A stretch of 33,413 nucleotides of DNA from Pseudomonadota bacterium. GTDB taxonomy: Bacteria > Pseudomonadota > Alphaproteobacteria > Rhodospirillales > Casp-alpha2. The translations under genes and the position numbers were made by a program. Position 1 is the first letter of the stretch, and each line of letters begins with the position of its first letter. Positions 1,757 to 32,837 of this stretch are shown here, piece after piece. Under the pieces are notes generated by a model. It was not told where the DNA came from, did no database searches, and saw nothing but the letters and a program-made list of their open reading frames with translations. Where the stretch lies: assembly GCA_022564115.1 (NCBI GenBank), contig JADFMB010000007.1:1-33413 (forward strand), given 5' to 3'.

Positions 1757-3028
1757 ATGAAGGTTCTGGTGATCGGATCGGGCGGCCGCGAGCATTCCCT
1801 GTGCTGGGCGATCGCCAAATCCGACAACTGCGACGAGCTTTACTGCGCGCCGGGCAACGCCGGTATCGATCAGGTCGCCATCACCGTTCCCATACCCGTC
1901 GACGACCTCGACGCGATCATGGATTTCGTCCGCGACAACGGCGTCGATTTCGTCGTCGTCGGACCCGAAGGCCCCCTGGTGGCCGGCCTGGTGGACCGGC
2001 TGGAGGACGCCGGCATCAAGGCCTTCGGCCCCACCGCGCGGGCCGCCGAGCTGGAAGGCTCCAAGGGCCTGACCAAGGACCTGTGCGCCAAGTATTCGAT
2101 CCCGACCGCCGATTACGCCCGCTTCGACGAGCCCGACGCGGCCAAGGAATACATCCGCGTCCACGGCGCCCCCATCGTCGTCAAGGCCGACGGCCTGGCC
2201 GCCGGCAAGGGGGTGATCCTGTGCCGCAACGAAAACGAGGCCTATGCCGCCATCGACCACATGATGACCGAAGCCGCCTTCGGCGAGGCCGGCGCCGAGG
2301 TGGTGATCGAGGAAATGCTGGTCGGCGAGGAGGCCAGCTTCTTCGCCCTGGTCGACGGCCAGACCGCGCTGCCGCTGGTCGCCGCCCAGGACCACAAGGC
2401 GGTGTTCGACGGCGACGAAGGCCCCAACACCGGCGGCATGGGGGCCTATACCCCGGCGCCGGTGATCACCGCCGACATGGAAAGGCGGATCATGGACGAA
2501 ATCATCAACCCCACCATCCGGGGCGCTTCCGCCGACGGCCGCCCCTACAAGGGTGTCCTCTACGCCGGGCTGATGATTACCGAAAAGGGGCCGGAACTGA
2601 TCGAATACAACGTCCGGTTCGGCGATCCGGAATGCCAGCCGATGATGATGCGGCTCAAGTCCGACGCGCTTGAGATGCTGCTCGCCTGCGCCGAGGGCCG
2701 GCTCGACAAGATCACCCTCGATTGGCGCGATGACGCCGCGCTGACCGTGGTCATGGCCACCGAAGGCTATCCCGGCGCCTACGCAAAAGGGTCCGAGATC
2801 AAGGGCCTGGAGGAGGCCGGCAGGCTCAAGGACGTTGTAATTTTCCATGCCGGCACCCGCGAAGACGATGGCAGGATCCTTGCCGACGGCGGCCGGGTGC
2901 TGAACGTGACGGCCCTGGGAAAGACCATCGGCGACGCCCAGAAGCGCGCTTACAGGGCCATCGGCCATATCGACTGGCCGGAAGGCTTCTGCCGTTCCGA
3001 CATCGGCTGGCGGGCGGCCGGGGGCTGA
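1757..3028 (+). CDS. purD: Phosphoribosylamine-glycine ligase (GARS)
   Basis: [19 protein letters not shown]...[14 protein letters not shown]...[13 protein letters not shown]...[13 protein letters not shown]...RFGDPECQ. Start taken at MKVLVIG. Confidence 0.97.
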
Positions 3029-3126
3029 GGTTTCCGTTGCCGCCCTTTCACCCGCCCTTTCATATGAGGCCGGGGCCGCTTATATAGTCGTCAACCGGAA
3101 AACACCGAAGATAAGGGAGGAAACCC

Positions 3127-3459
3127 ATGGCAACCGACATGGACGACACCACGCGCACCGAGCTCGAAGCGGCCGCCTTTCGCGGCCTGGTCGAGCACCT
3201 TCGCAAACGCACCGACGTCCAGAACATCGACATCATGAGCCTGGCCGGGTTCTGCCGGAACTGCCTTTCCAAATGGTACCGGGCGGCGGCCGGGGAAAGG
3301 GGCCTGGACATGACCTACGACGAGGCCCGCGAGATCGTCTACGGCATGCCCTACGGCGAGTGGAAGGACAAGTACCAGACAGAATCGACCGACCAGCAGA
3401 AGCAGTTGTTCGAGGACACCAAGCCGCTGCACGCCGACATCAGCGGCCACGCTAAATAA
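3127..3459 (+). CDS. DUF1244 family small protein
   Basis: 110 aa ORF with GFCRNCLSKWYRAAAGERGLDMTYDEAREIVYGMPYGEWKDKYQ. Preceded by an aagggaggaaa ribosome binding site. Confidence 0.85.
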   Translation: MATDMDDTTRTELEAAAFRGLVEHLRKRTDVQNIDIMSLAGFCRNCLSKWYRAAAGERGLDMTYDEAREIVYGMPYGEWKDKYQTESTDQQKQLFEDTKPLHADISGHAK

Positions 3460-3484
3460 ACCGCGAACAAACCGCCTTGGGCCG

Positions 3485-4528
3485 ATGGCCAATTTGACCT
3501 CCGACGGAATGATCCGCCCCGAGTTGTGGCCGAATTCCGGCTTCGGGCTGTTGGAGCGGGACGCCGACGGCCGGCTCGTGGTCACCGACGGCTTCCTCCG
3601 CGCCTACCTGGGGCGGCCCGAACTGGCGCCGGTGGCCGAATCGTGCGACGCCGAGCGCGCCCTTCACGCCCGCTTGCTGGACAACCCCCGCCTCGAGGTC
3701 GCCGACGGCGACATCCGGAAGATCGAGGACGATGACGCGCGCGAGAACTACACCGTCATGCTCGGCTTCCGCGACAGGCTGCTCGGGGCCGGCACCGTCG
3801 AAGGCTGTTACCTGAGCCTTTTCCAGTCCGGCGACGTGACCCTGCCGGGATTGTTCGTCGATCAAATGGCGCACGTCATCGTCCGCAACATCCTCGACGA
3901 GGCCACCGATCCGTTCCAGGCCCGGGCCGGCGAATTGCTGTTCCGCGAACAGAACGCCACCATCGAGCAGGGCGCCATCCTGCTCGGCGATACCGAGACC
4001 GTCGAGATGCTGGCCACCACCGGCGGCATGGGCAGCCTCGGCAAGCTGGTGGTCACGGGCGGCGTCAAGCCGAAGCAGGTGAACCTGGACGTGTTGCAGC
4101 CGGAATCCGCCGACATCTATTGGGACCGCAACGAACGCCACGACACGGTGCTCGACGTTTCATTCACCCGCCCGGGGCTGGAGGCGCTGTGCCGGGTGCT
4201 GGAGGCCTGGATCGACCATTTCCTCGCCACCCGCGTTTCCATCCAGCCGGTCGGCAAGATTGCCGACGAGCGCTGGGTCTGGCATGTCGGCCTGGACAAG
4301 GAATCGTCGGCGATCCTGAACGACCTCTATAAAGGCATCGACGTCGCCGAGGACCGCATGCAAAGGGTGCTGAGCCTGTTTCGGATGGAATTCGAGGATG
4401 CCAACCAGATGCGTTCCGACATCGCCGGGCGGCCGGTCTATATGGCGCTGTCGATGACGCCGGAGAAGAAGGTGCGCCTGAAGCCGCAGAACCTTCTGGT
4501 CAACCTGCCGTTGGCCCGGGAGTCCTGA
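3485..4528 (+). CDS. Conserved hypothetical protein (possibly DUF6352 family; name tentative)
   Basis: 347 aa ORF with alphaproteobacterial codon bias, co-directional with the DUF1244 gene and with a short gap. Confidence 0.75.
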   Translation: MANLTSDGMIRPELWPNSGFGLLERDADGRLVVTDGFLRAYLGRPELAPVAESCDAERALHARLLDNPRLEVADGDIRKIEDDDARENYTVMLGFRDRLLGAGTVEGCYLSLFQSGDVTLPGLFVDQMAHVIVRNILDEATDPFQARAGELLFREQNATIEQGAILLGDTETVEMLATTGGMGSLGKLVVTGGVKPKQVNLDVLQPESADIYWDRNERHDTVLDVSFTRPGLEALCRVLEAWIDHFLATRVSIQPVGKIADERWVWHVGLDKESSAILNDLYKGIDVAEDRMQRVLSLFRMEFEDANQMRSDIAGRPVYMALSMTPEKKVRLKPQNLLVNLPLARES

Positions 4529-29452: not shown

Positions 29453-29566
29453 AAGAGTTTGGGCTCCGGGATATTCCCCAATCGGAGCCTGGGATGCGCT
29501 TTTTAAAGGATCATGCGCCGTGGCTCAACCTCGGATCGAAAAAGGGCCAGGGCCGAGGACAGCCCC

Positions 29567-30466
29567 ATGAGCCCCGCCGACCCCCCCGAACCCCTCCTGG
29601 ATCCCCGAACCCATCCCTACCGGGGCGACATCGCCGCCGACTTCCTGGAAGGCCGCGTCGAATCGGAATCCTTCGTCGCCGGCCGCGAACGCCGCCTGGG
29701 CACCGCCCAATCGGCGGTGATGACCAAGCCGATCACGGCGAATTCGATTTTGGGCGTATTGCAGGCAAGCGAACTTCTGTTCGGCGAGGCGTTCACCGTC
29801 TATGACGAATCCCACGGCTGGGCCTGGGGCCAATGCGGCCACGACGGCCAAGTCGGCTACGTGGCGGCGGCCGACCTTTACGGCAACCTGGCCCAACCGA
29901 CCCATTGGGTGACGGCGGCCCACTCCCTGGTGTTCCCGGACCCGAAGGGCGAATACCCGGCGATGATGTCGGTGTCGATGACGGCCCGGGTTGCGGTCGA
30001 CAAGGAAGAAGGCGAATACGTTCGCCTCGCGTCGGGCGGCTGGATGTTCGGGAATCACCTGGCGCCCCTGGGCGAGATCCGGTCCGATTTCATCGCCACG
30101 GCGCAGGTATTCACCCGCGTGCCCTACCTGTGGGGCGGGCGCGGCGGTCTCGGCATCGACTGTTCGGGGCTGGTGCAGGTGCCCCTGGCGGCGGCCGGCA
30201 TCGCGGTTCCCCGCGATTCCGACCAACAAGCGGACGCCGTCGGCGAGGACATCGAGGTGCCCGAAGACGTTTCCGATTTGCGGCCCGGCGATATTTTGTT
30301 CTTTCCCGGCCACGTCGGCTTCTATTTGGGCTCGGGCGCCTTCCTGCACGCATCGAGTTTCGGCATGATGGTCGCGACGCATACGCTGGCCGAAGTGCTG
30401 GAGCGCATCCATGAGCGCCACGGCACCGGCATCACAAGGGTCAGAAGGGTTAAGGTGGCGGGATGA
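29567..30466 (+). CDS. NlpC/P60 family cell-wall hydrolase with N-terminal SH3-like region
   Basis: VPYLWGGRGGLGIDCSGLVQVPLAAAGIAVPRDSDQQ...LRPGDILFFPGHVGFYLGSGAFLHAS. Start at MSPADPPE after a gagga ribosome binding site. Confidence 0.93.
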   Translation: MSPADPPEPLLDPRTHPYRGDIAADFLEGRVESESFVAGRERRLGTAQSAVMTKPITANSILGVLQASELLFGEAFTVYDESHGWAWGQCGHDGQVGYVAAADLYGNLAQPTHWVTAAHSLVFPDPKGEYPAMMSVSMTARVAVDKEEGEYVRLASGGWMFGNHLAPLGEIRSDFIATAQVFTRVPYLWGGRGGLGIDCSGLVQVPLAAAGIAVPRDSDQQADAVGEDIEVPEDVSDLRPGDILFFPGHVGFYLGSGAFLHASSFGMMVATHTLAEVLERIHERHGTGITRVRRVKVAG

Positions 30467-30822
30467 GGAAACGGCGCACACCGTTCGATTTGATCAGAAG
30501 CGTTTTAGGGACCGGCGTCCTGGTCGTCGCCCTGTTATTCCAGATGCTGCCGTTCTTCCTGCTTCTGGTGGTGATGGCCTATGCCATGGGTGTCACCGGC
30601 GGCGCGATGCTGGTCATCGTCCCCGTCCTCTTGTTGGCGATGATTTTTGCCGCCTGCGGGCTGGCCGCGAAACGCACGCGGCGGCGTTATCCCGCCTGGC
30701 CGCCGCCGATGAGGAGGCGAGCCCGCAGAAGGCCCGTTCGGCCAGCCGCGGTGGCGCTGCTGAAGACCCGAGCCGAGCGTTACCAGGAACTGAGGGACGT
30801 CATGAGGGGCGTTTGGCGGTAG
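30463..30822 (+). CDS. Small hydrophobic (membrane) hypothetical protein
   Basis: 119 aa ORF with 4-bp ATGA overlap to the NlpC/P60 gene and two predicted hydrophobic helices. Confidence 0.55.
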   Translation: MRKRRTPFDLIRSVLGTGVLVVALLFQMLPFFLLLVVMAYAMGVTGGAMLVIVPVLLLAMIFAACGLAAKRTRRRYPAWPPPMRRRARRRPVRPAAVALLKTRAERYQELRDVMRGVWR

Positions 30823-30880: not shown

Positions 30881-30930
30881 TGGTACCCCCCGGGGGGACT
30901 CGAACTCACACTCCCTTGCGGGAACGGGAT
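30881..30930 (-). pseudogene. Degenerate 3' half of tRNA-Leu (direct repeat of the 3' half of the tRNA at 32007-32093)
   Basis: tggtaccccccggggggactcgaactcacactcccttgcgggaacgggat aligns to 32007-32055 with 44/50 positions identical by hand alignment. The T-stem is disrupted and homology ends at the anticodon stem. Confidence 0.85.
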
Positions 30931-31015
30931 CGTCCGCTCTCCGCCGCCGAACTCCCGACGAACCGGCTGGCCGACTGTCGTGCCGTGGATCGTAGTCACG
31001 CTCCCCCACGATGTA

Positions 31016-31044
31016 TTTACGATGTGCGCACAATAATGTATATT
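31016..31044 (+). promoter_or_regulatory. Candidate sigma70-type promoter of the TA operon with an operator-like palindrome
   Basis: -35 TTTACG (31016-31021), 17-bp spacer, -10 TATATT (31039-31044). Perfect 10-bp palindrome TGTGCGCACA (31023-31032) lies in the spacer. Confidence 0.6.
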
Positions 31045-31069
31045 GAATGTAGTGACAAAGGAGGATGAC

Positions 31070-31363
31070 ATGCCAAACACCCGTACGGCGGTTCGTGCGG
31101 CCCGGGACGTGAACATCAATCTGCGCGCCAGCCAGAAACAAAGGTCCCTGATCGACCGGGCGGCGGAGGCGCTCGGCAAGAACCGCTCGGACTTCATGCT
31201 TGAAGCCTCCTGCCGGGAAGCGGAGTCGGTTCTGCTCGACCGCCGGTATTTCGCGCTTGACGCCGAGACGTTCAAGGAATTCACGGCGATGCTGGATTCA
31301 CCGCCGGCGACCAACCCGAGGCTGCGCCGTCTGCTGGCCGAGAAGGCGCCCTGGGATCGATGA
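31070..31363 (+). CDS. DUF1778 ribbon-helix-helix antitoxin (TacA-like)
   Basis: RDVNINLRASQKQRSLIDRAAEALGKNRSDFMLEASCREAESVLLDRRYFALDAETFKEFTAMLDSPPATNPRLRRLLAEKAPWD. Preceded by an aaaggagg ribosome binding site. Confidence 0.94.
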   Translation: MPNTRTAVRAARDVNINLRASQKQRSLIDRAAEALGKNRSDFMLEASCREAESVLLDRRYFALDAETFKEFTAMLDSPPATNPRLRRLLAEKAPWDR

Positions 31364-31881
31364 GCGGCGAACAGGACATAAGCGCACCGGAAAAGCTTGA
31401 ACCGAATCACGACTTCTCGTCGTTCGATTCGGGCACGCCGGTTCTGGACGACTGGCTGCGGCGGTGGGCCTTGCCCAATCAGGAGAGCGGCGCGTCGCGG
31501 ACTTACGTGATCCGCGCCGGAAGGCGTGTGGTCGGGTATTACGCTCTGGCGGCCGGGGCGGTCGCACGGGCCGAGGCGACGGGGCGGACCCGGCGAAACA
31601 TGCCGGACCCGGTGCCGGTCATGGTGATCGCCCGCCTCGCCATCGATCGGAGTTGCCAGGGACGCGGCCTCGGCCGGGCGTTGTTGCGCGATGCGGTCCT
31701 GCGCACGATGCAGGCGGCCGACATCGCCGGAATCAGGGCGGTGCTGGTACATGCCATTTCCGAAGACGCCAGGCGATTCTATGAGCGATGCGGGTTTCAG
31801 CCGTCGCCGGTCGATCCCATGACCCTGATGATCACGATGCGGGACGCGGGGCAGGCGCTGATAGGCGGGAACGATACATGA
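31360..31881 (+). CDS. GNAT-family acetyltransferase toxin (TacT-like)
   Basis: GNAT motif ARLAIDRSCQGRGLGRALLRDAVLRTMQAADIAGIRAVLVHAISEDARRFYERCGFQPSPVDPMTLMITM. 4-bp ATGA overlap with the antitoxin gene. Confidence 0.94.
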   Translation: MSGEQDISAPEKLEPNHDFSSFDSGTPVLDDWLRRWALPNQESGASRTYVIRAGRRVVGYYALAAGAVARAEATGRTRRNMPDPVPVMVIARLAIDRSCQGRGLGRALLRDAVLRTMQAADIAGIRAVLVHAISEDARRFYERCGFQPSPVDPMTLMITMRDAGQALIGGNDT

Positions 31882-32006
31882 TCGCGGGCGGTCCGGCGGA
31901 GCGCCCCTCGTCGGTTTGTCTGATGACTGCCCTGTATTTCATGGCCGTCGAATCCTTGACCATCCAAATCATGACGGATACGGCTTTCAGCCGCCGAGGC
32001 GAAGGG

Positions 32007-32093
32007 TGGTGCCCCCGGGGAGAATCGAACTCCCACTCCCTTGCGAGAACGGGATTTTGAATCCCGCGCGTCTACCAATTCCGCCACAGGGGC
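32007..32093 (-). tRNA. tRNA-Leu(CAA)
   Basis: Reverse complement gcccctgtggcggaattggtagacgcgcgggattcaaaatcccgttctcgcaagggagtgggagttcgattctccccgggggcacca folds as a class II tRNA. Anticodon stem CGGGA/TCCCG, loop TTCAAAA (anticodon CAA), long variable arm, T-stem GGGAG/CTCCC, encoded CCA. Confidence 0.97.
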
Positions 32094-32255: not shown

Positions 32256-32837
32256 TTGCTGCGACGCCTTTACGACTGGACCATGGACCTGGCCCAACAC
32301 CGCCGCGCGATGGCGGCACTGGCCGGGGTGTCGTTCATCGAAAGCTCGGTGTTTCCGATCCCGCCGGATATTTTGATGATTCCGATGGTGCTGGCCAACA
32401 GGGCGCGGGCCTTCCGCATCGCCTTCGTGTGCACCGTGGCGTCGGTCCTGGGCGGGATTCTGGGTTACGCCATCGGCGTTTTCCTGTTCGAGGAAATCGG
32501 CAAGCCGATGCTGGAATTCTATGGCTACGGGCCGAAATTCGCCGAGTTCCAGGACAAATACAACGACTGGGGCGCCTGGGCCGTGTTCATCGCCGGGGTG
32601 ACGCCGTTTCCCTACAAGGTCATTACCATCCTGTCCGGGGTCACGGCGCTTGATATCTTCATCTTCACCGTCGCCTCGGTGGCCGCCCGGGGGCTCCGGT
32701 TCTTCATCGTCGCCGGGCTGTTGTGGCATTTCGGGGAACCGATCCGCACCTTCATCGAAAAACGCCTGGGCCTGCTGTTCGGGCTGTTCTGCGTCCTGCT
32801 GCTGGGTGGCTTCGCCGCCGTAAAGTTCTTATTTTAA
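32256..32837 (+). CDS. DedA/YqaA (VTT domain) family membrane protein
   Basis: IESSVFPIPPDILMIPMVLANRARAFRIAFVCTVASVLGGILGYAIG...AGVTPFPYKVITILSGV. TTG start at 32256; ATG at 32283 is an alternative. Confidence 0.9.
   Translation: MLRRLYDWTMDLAQHRRAMAALAGVSFIESSVFPIPPDILMIPMVLANRARAFRIAFVCTVASVLGGILGYAIGVFLFEEIGKPMLEFYGYGPKFAEFQDKYNDWGAWAVFIAGVTPFPYKVITILSGVTALDIFIFTVASVAARGLRFFIVAGLLWHFGEPIRTFIEKRLGLLFGLFCVLLLGGFAAVKFLF

Follow-up and report, generated by a model that had tools for sequence, protein, structure and literature searches.

In the window, by which we mean the whole stretch of 33,413 nucleotides that was analysed, an intact tRNA-Leu(CAA) gene and a displaced copy of its own 3' half bracket ca. 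1.1 kb of DNA whose only genes are tacA and tacT, a toxin-antitoxin (TA) pair. This islet is probably the scar of an island that a tyrosine integrase had placed at tRNA-Leu(CAA) and that has eroded to its addiction module.

The intact tRNA gene, the presumed attachment target, lies on the minus strand at 32007-32093 (ARAGORN; Rfam RF00005, 57.9 bits) with its CCA encoded at 32007-32009 and its anticodon loop, TTTTGAA, at 32055-32061. Its 3' half recurs on the same strand at 30881-30930, in a copy that spans everything from the CCA up to and including the first anticodon-loop base. The two copies share an ungapped repeat of 44 nt with 91% identity (30887-30930 and 32012-32055), and an alignment with a single gap reaches 30881 through the CCA (30881-30883) with 44 of 50 columns matching. 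An initial annotation of this DNA had proposed from a hand alignment that the last ca. 50 nt of the tRNA gene recur in this way, and both shuffling and a genome search bear this out: the local alignment of the repeat scores 37 compared to a maximum of 15 in 2000 shuffles of the region, and the best match of the fragment in the whole assembly, besides itself, is tRNA-Leu(CAA) (E 4e-11), with nothing beyond these two below E ~0.8. That the fragment instead derives from some other, unrelated tRNA gene, or resembles tRNA-Leu(CAA) by chance alone, is extremely improbable and refuted by these two tests, since the assembly holds no tRNA gene that matches it better than tRNA-Leu(CAA), the shuffles stay below half of the observed score, and neither ARAGORN nor Rfam finds the 5' half of another tRNA nearby.

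The end point of the repeat is informative as well. The homology had been described as ending at the anticodon stem; the true end lies one base further on, where the anticodon loop begins. The anticodon loop is a known sublocation of integrase sites in tRNA genes, others being the T loop and the T/acceptor junction. An intact tRNA gene combined with a displaced 3' fragment in direct orientation is the arrangement by which remnant islands are recognised, and the displaced copy has indeed begun to decay, as originally suggested: when read from the sequence, its T-stem keeps three of five pairs and has lost two. Active islands have an identical core at both ends, and in the displaced copy only the first of the seven loop bases aligns. 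Because the core is thus not intact on this side, we classify the element as an eroded remnant and not as an active island.

The interval between the repeats fits this classification in that it holds no integrase or other island genes as an active island would, but only the DUF1778-GNAT pair, so that gene content and Pfam searches agree with what had been noted at the outset. The first gene, tacA (31070-31363, plus strand), encodes a ribbon-helix-helix antitoxin of 97 aa with a DUF1778 domain (PF08681, E 3e-25, 88 bits at a cut-off of 21; PDB 7zg6, E 5e-24; 7ak7 chain C, E 6e-19). It overlaps by 4 nt with tacT (31360-31881, plus strand), which encodes a GNAT acetyltransferase toxin of 173 aa (PF13508/PF00583, with 46 bits for PF13508 at a cut-off of 27; PDB 7ak7, E 2e-49 over residues 7-163). 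For both proteins, alignments to TacAT-type proteins of solved structure cover most of the sequence, and the pair is not truncated. By its sequence it is a type II TA system of the TacAT (DUF1778-GNAT) kind with a predicted toxin activity, while PADLOC matched no family at these genes. Among three closely related pairs, i.e., that of the window and those of loci L079 and L080, dN/dS ranges from 0.18 to 0.41, which indicates that the pair is under constraint. The islet contains ca. 140 bp to the left of tacA, including a putative promoter/operator region (31010-31069, plus strand) with the palindrome TGTGCGCACA at 31023-31032 as its candidate operator, and L079 and L080 have a similar stretch ahead of their own pairs. 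To the right of tacT, 125 bp (31882-32006) end in GGCGAAGGG directly abutting the CCA of the intact tRNA. The genome of the window encodes a second TacA-GNAT pair (L159, 6409-7265; G000:C191), which is distant (29-31% identical) and surrounded by a merely weak repeat of 25 nt.

Outside the islet, the genes are chromosomal: an NlpC/P60 gene conserved in congeners (29513-30466, plus strand) and the gene of a small membrane protein (30463-30822, plus strand) on one side, and the gene of a VTT-domain membrane protein (32256-32837, plus strand) at the 5' side of the tRNA on the other. In two congeners, G008 and G003, the genes for NlpC, the small membrane protein (truncated in G008), tRNA-Leu, VTT, and DsbB follow each other in the order of the window without the TA pair. 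The closest relative at this locus, the sister species G002 (VTT 97% identical), also lacks the pair there, and G007 and G006 agree with a pair-less locus on contigs that end inside the tRNA. The empty site that an insertion predicts, running from the NlpC/membrane gene region into tRNA-Leu, is therefore seen directly in G008 and G003 and on split contigs in G007. No TacA was found at the scan threshold in G002, G003, G006, and G007, the only TacA pair of G008 is a distant one elsewhere in the genome, and relatives of TacT are missing from G001, G002, G003, G005, G006, G007, and G009, several of which are incomplete genomes.

The flanks of the two tRNA copies indicate which of them is the older resident. 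The displaced copy sits where the 3' end of the tRNA lies in congeners, and since its left flank, GAAAAATGG, resembles the tRNA flank of G003 and G004, it appears to be the 3' half that the chromosome originally had. Next to the intact tRNA of the window stands GGCGAAGGGTGG instead, a flank shared with G002, G006, and G008, and because these genomes lack the pair, it does not prove that the right end arrived with the islet. A palindromic sequence with the motif GCCACCC...GGCGAAGGGTGG lies directly next to the tRNA CCA in G002, G006, and partly in G008 (L039, L041, and L046), and its end, GGCGAAGGGTGGTG, has one exact occurrence in the genome of the window.

Another reading of the repeat would be that illegitimate recombination or a partial tandem duplication copied the 3' half of the tRNA and that the TA pair came independently, e.g., by homologous recombination in the flanks. 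Besides the flank shared with pair-less genomes, this idea draws on G002, where a second tRNA-Leu 3' half (L039, 6506-6565) lies between the NlpC gene and the small membrane gene without bracketing cargo as in the window. This extra half, which is absent from the window, bears on the objection that pair-less relatives might carry both tRNA-like copies, yet it does not amount to that case given its other position and its identity of only ca. 79% to the tRNA. As it is also no closer to the fragment of the window than to the tRNA itself, it looks like a different, independent, and probably older scar; no signal of such an older layer between the NlpC and membrane genes was seen in G003 and G007. 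Duplication leaves unexplained why the boundary falls at the anticodon loop, why an integrase-bearing island occupies the same site in a congener, why tRNA halves repeatedly bracket TacA loci, and why close relatives of the pair lie beside tRNA-Leu(CAA) in other genomes, and we consider it quite unlikely.

The congener with an island at the same site is G009, in which tRNA-Leu(CAA) is split such that positions 1-56 are found beside NlpC and positions 49-87 beside VTT on different contigs. The two halves overlap only in the anticodon loop (TTTTGAAT), and between them lie a complete second tRNA-Leu(CAA) with 82% identity, a tyrosine integrase of 453 aa (phrog_1, E 1e-30), and, on the other contig, a further integrase-domain protein. 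This is the larger integrase-bearing island that the initial annotation had suggested to look for at this tRNA. The same arrangement is present in G028 (L049, 7756-9484) with an integrase 40% identical to that of G009, and G030 shows the tRNA 5' half beside a complete tRNA (L050, 10225-10483). In G005, the contig breaks off on the 3' side of the tRNA, and a short open reading frame at this end resembles an integrase N-terminus by eye. In G009 (island at L045, 7471-9119, and L044, 14175-14230), G028, and G030, all relatives of the bacterium of the window, the islands interrupt tRNA-Leu(CAA) at its anticodon loop and supply a complete tRNA-Leu(CAA) in its place, and by analogy their organisation looks like the tRNA-dependent integration of phage Gaia (see below). 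A separate observation concerns the tRNA-Leu(CAA) of G008 (L041, 1737-1823), which differs by ca. 10% from that of G000, G001, G002, and G004 despite flanking genes that are 88-93% identical in protein, and which has 99% identical counterparts in genomes of other families. This suggests that passing islands may have replaced the tRNA of G008.

The TA pair itself is also linked to this tRNA. The two closest relatives of the window's TacT in our genome collection (88% and 84% identical) are both encoded on contigs with tRNA-Leu(CAA), and the respective pairs at L079 and L080 are 84-91% identical to that of the window, though embedded in different chromosomal flanks. At L080, tRNA-Leu(CAA) lies 132 bp from TacT. 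At L079, it lies 1.3 kb from TacT and is followed by the 5' half of another tRNA-Leu that starts at the anticodon loop, i.e., a close relative of the pair sits beside a split tRNA-Leu(CAA). One TA subfamily next to one tRNA in three genomes fits a delivery by islands that target tRNA-Leu(CAA). Between TacA-TacT and the tRNA, L079 additionally encodes a protein of 339 aa (2995-4014) without any Pfam match at E 0.001 that appears SIR2-like by eye and is a possible candidate defence gene.

The interpretation as a tRNA-integrated island, as put forward in the initial annotation, is thus supported by the congener sites, the island of G009, the pair of L079, and the best match of the fragment. In the sequence of events that we favour, a tyrosine integrase would have inserted a mobile island into tRNA-Leu(CAA) at the anticodon loop. 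The island's own copy of the tRNA 3' half would have restored the gene (now at 32007-32093) and displaced the original 3' half to 30881-30930. Later deletions would then have removed the integrase and the remaining cargo, while the TacA-TacT operon presumably stayed because cells losing it are poisoned by residual TacT. Against this history stand the 7-bp crossover loop, which is not intact on the displaced side, the lack of any trace of an integrase or other island genes in the islet, the 3' flank of the intact tRNA, which is not specific to the islet but found in pair-less congeners, and the extra tRNA half elsewhere at the G002 locus.

To see how far such brackets extend beyond this locus, we surveyed 120 TacA loci, drawn from 297 genomes within the order, using offset positions on the same contigs as controls. 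Strong direct repeats, defined as at least 30 nt with E < 1e-10 and bracketing the TA block, were found at 9 of 108 TacA loci compared to 8 of 846 controls (Fisher p 2.5e-5), an enrichment that may partly reflect that TA pairs live in islands since the controls were not matched for lying inside them. A short T-arm regular expression showed no enrichment near TacA loci (13/106 versus 84/890) because this motif matches by chance. A stricter scan for T-arm plus CCA, run only after the result of the looser expression was known, placed a tRNA 3' end, whether intact or partial, no more than 400 bp away from 12 of 104 TacA loci, compared to 26 of 846 controls (p 4e-4). For ParE as a second TA family, none of 29 loci had a strong repeat, too few to call the pattern specific to TacAT.

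Reading the repeat sequences assigned several of them to displaced 3' halves of tRNA genes: tRNA-Asn at L138 (boundary in the anticodon loop, interval of ca. 1.0 kb), tRNA-Val at L177 (boundary at the anticodon loop, 1.14 kb), tRNA-Ser at L199 (boundary in the T-arm, 1.09 kb), tRNA-Pro at L217, and tRNA-Val again at L189 (G166, 338-2762), where both 3' halves are displaced, the interval measures 1.16 kb, and a tyrosine integrase gene lies ca. 60 bp outside the second copy. At L240, 43 bp from the 3' end of a dnaE2-like gene are repeated without a mismatch (interval of 0.93 kb). The nine positives also include a transposase-like repeat (L133), the 5' end of a comM-like gene with 76% identity (L195), and a terminator (L229), none of which is a clear integration scar. 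Outside the order, repeats of 80-87 nt were observed at L088, L089, L093, and L094. We considered integron cassettes with attC sites for L088, L093, and L094 and rejected them given that the translated repeats read, by eye, as ends of protein genes (yqeY-like and DUF4143-like).

Integrase-less elements with attachment sites are known as cis-mobilizable elements. The islet could itself be a mobile unit, a TA cassette of ca. 1 kb between two att sites that integrases of resident islands move in trans at anticodon-loop sites. Similarly small repeat-bounded intervals at L138, L189, L199, L177, and L240 speak for this proposal, as does the integrase gene just outside L189. Yet the target genes vary, including several tRNAs as well as protein genes, and would require different integrases, no conserved non-coding ends were seen between the islets, the displaced site of the window has no intact 7-bp core, and no viral contig with a close TacT relative was found, which together make a mobile cassette unlikely for the window. 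The broader notion that TacA-TacT recurrently forms stand-alone islets of ca. 1 kb between repeated 3' ends of genes for tRNAs or proteins, without an integrase and possibly moved in trans, is tentative and rather doubtful, if somewhat less so. The TacA-GNAT pair of L189 would lend itself well to a test of mobilisation in trans. Similar pairs in bracketed islets of ca. 1 kb occur in several other bacteria, so that such pairs may mark lost islands.

There is good support for reading the islet of the window as a scar left by a known type of element, here in unusually reduced form, and the islet is accompanied by a wider statistical pattern. If the island indeed eroded, lone chromosomal TA pairs between duplicates of a target gene would be relics of vanished islands and would directly record addiction at work, with the module persisting where the rest is gone. 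If the islet were instead a mobile unit, it would represent an overlooked new and minimal kind of integrating element. On the erosion reading, a TA pair between the 3' end of a gene and a displaced copy of it is a simple, searchable signature for the origin of lone chromosomal TA operons. The wider bracket pattern deserves a proper survey. Literature searches limited to a collection of open-access papers found no described class of such TA islets, an absence that is weak evidence.

The islet can be compared to several known systems. Islands of the type collected in Islander, which lists 2083 islands with anticodon-centred sites and 3760 with 3' fragments (PMC4383910), share with the window a regenerated tRNA at one end and a displaced 3' fragment at the other, whereas the islet has no integrase and measures only ca. 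1.1 kb. Since Islander requires an integrase gene and applies a length filter (PMC4383910), such islets fall outside of it. Mycobacteriophage Gaia integrates into tRNA-Leu-CAA, which it splits at a core of 8 bp, and supplies a tRNA of its own, a case of the tRNA-dependent lysogeny described for actinobacteriophages (PMC10865867). The island of G009 resembles Gaia in the split tRNA-Leu(CAA), the core of ca. 8 bp, and the tRNA-Leu(CAA) that it carries; this likeness extends to G028, G030, and possibly L079, while the window has a single, apparently restored copy of the tRNA. Regarding the proteins, TacAT, AtaRT, and KacAT have the gene order, gene overlap, ribbon-helix-helix antitoxin, and GNAT toxin of the pair in the window, and toxins of the TacAT family acetylate aminoacyl-tRNA, mostly Gly-tRNA (PMC9177977). 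Compared to these systems, the proteins of the window are ordinary, and what distinguishes them is their placement in a tRNA-bracketed islet. Fragments of tRNA genes are pervasive scars of integration (PMC9897764), and the elements described there include, like the window, attachment-site remnants without an integrase; the examples given are insertions of ca. 9-23 kb and larger, whereas in the window only the TA operon is left.
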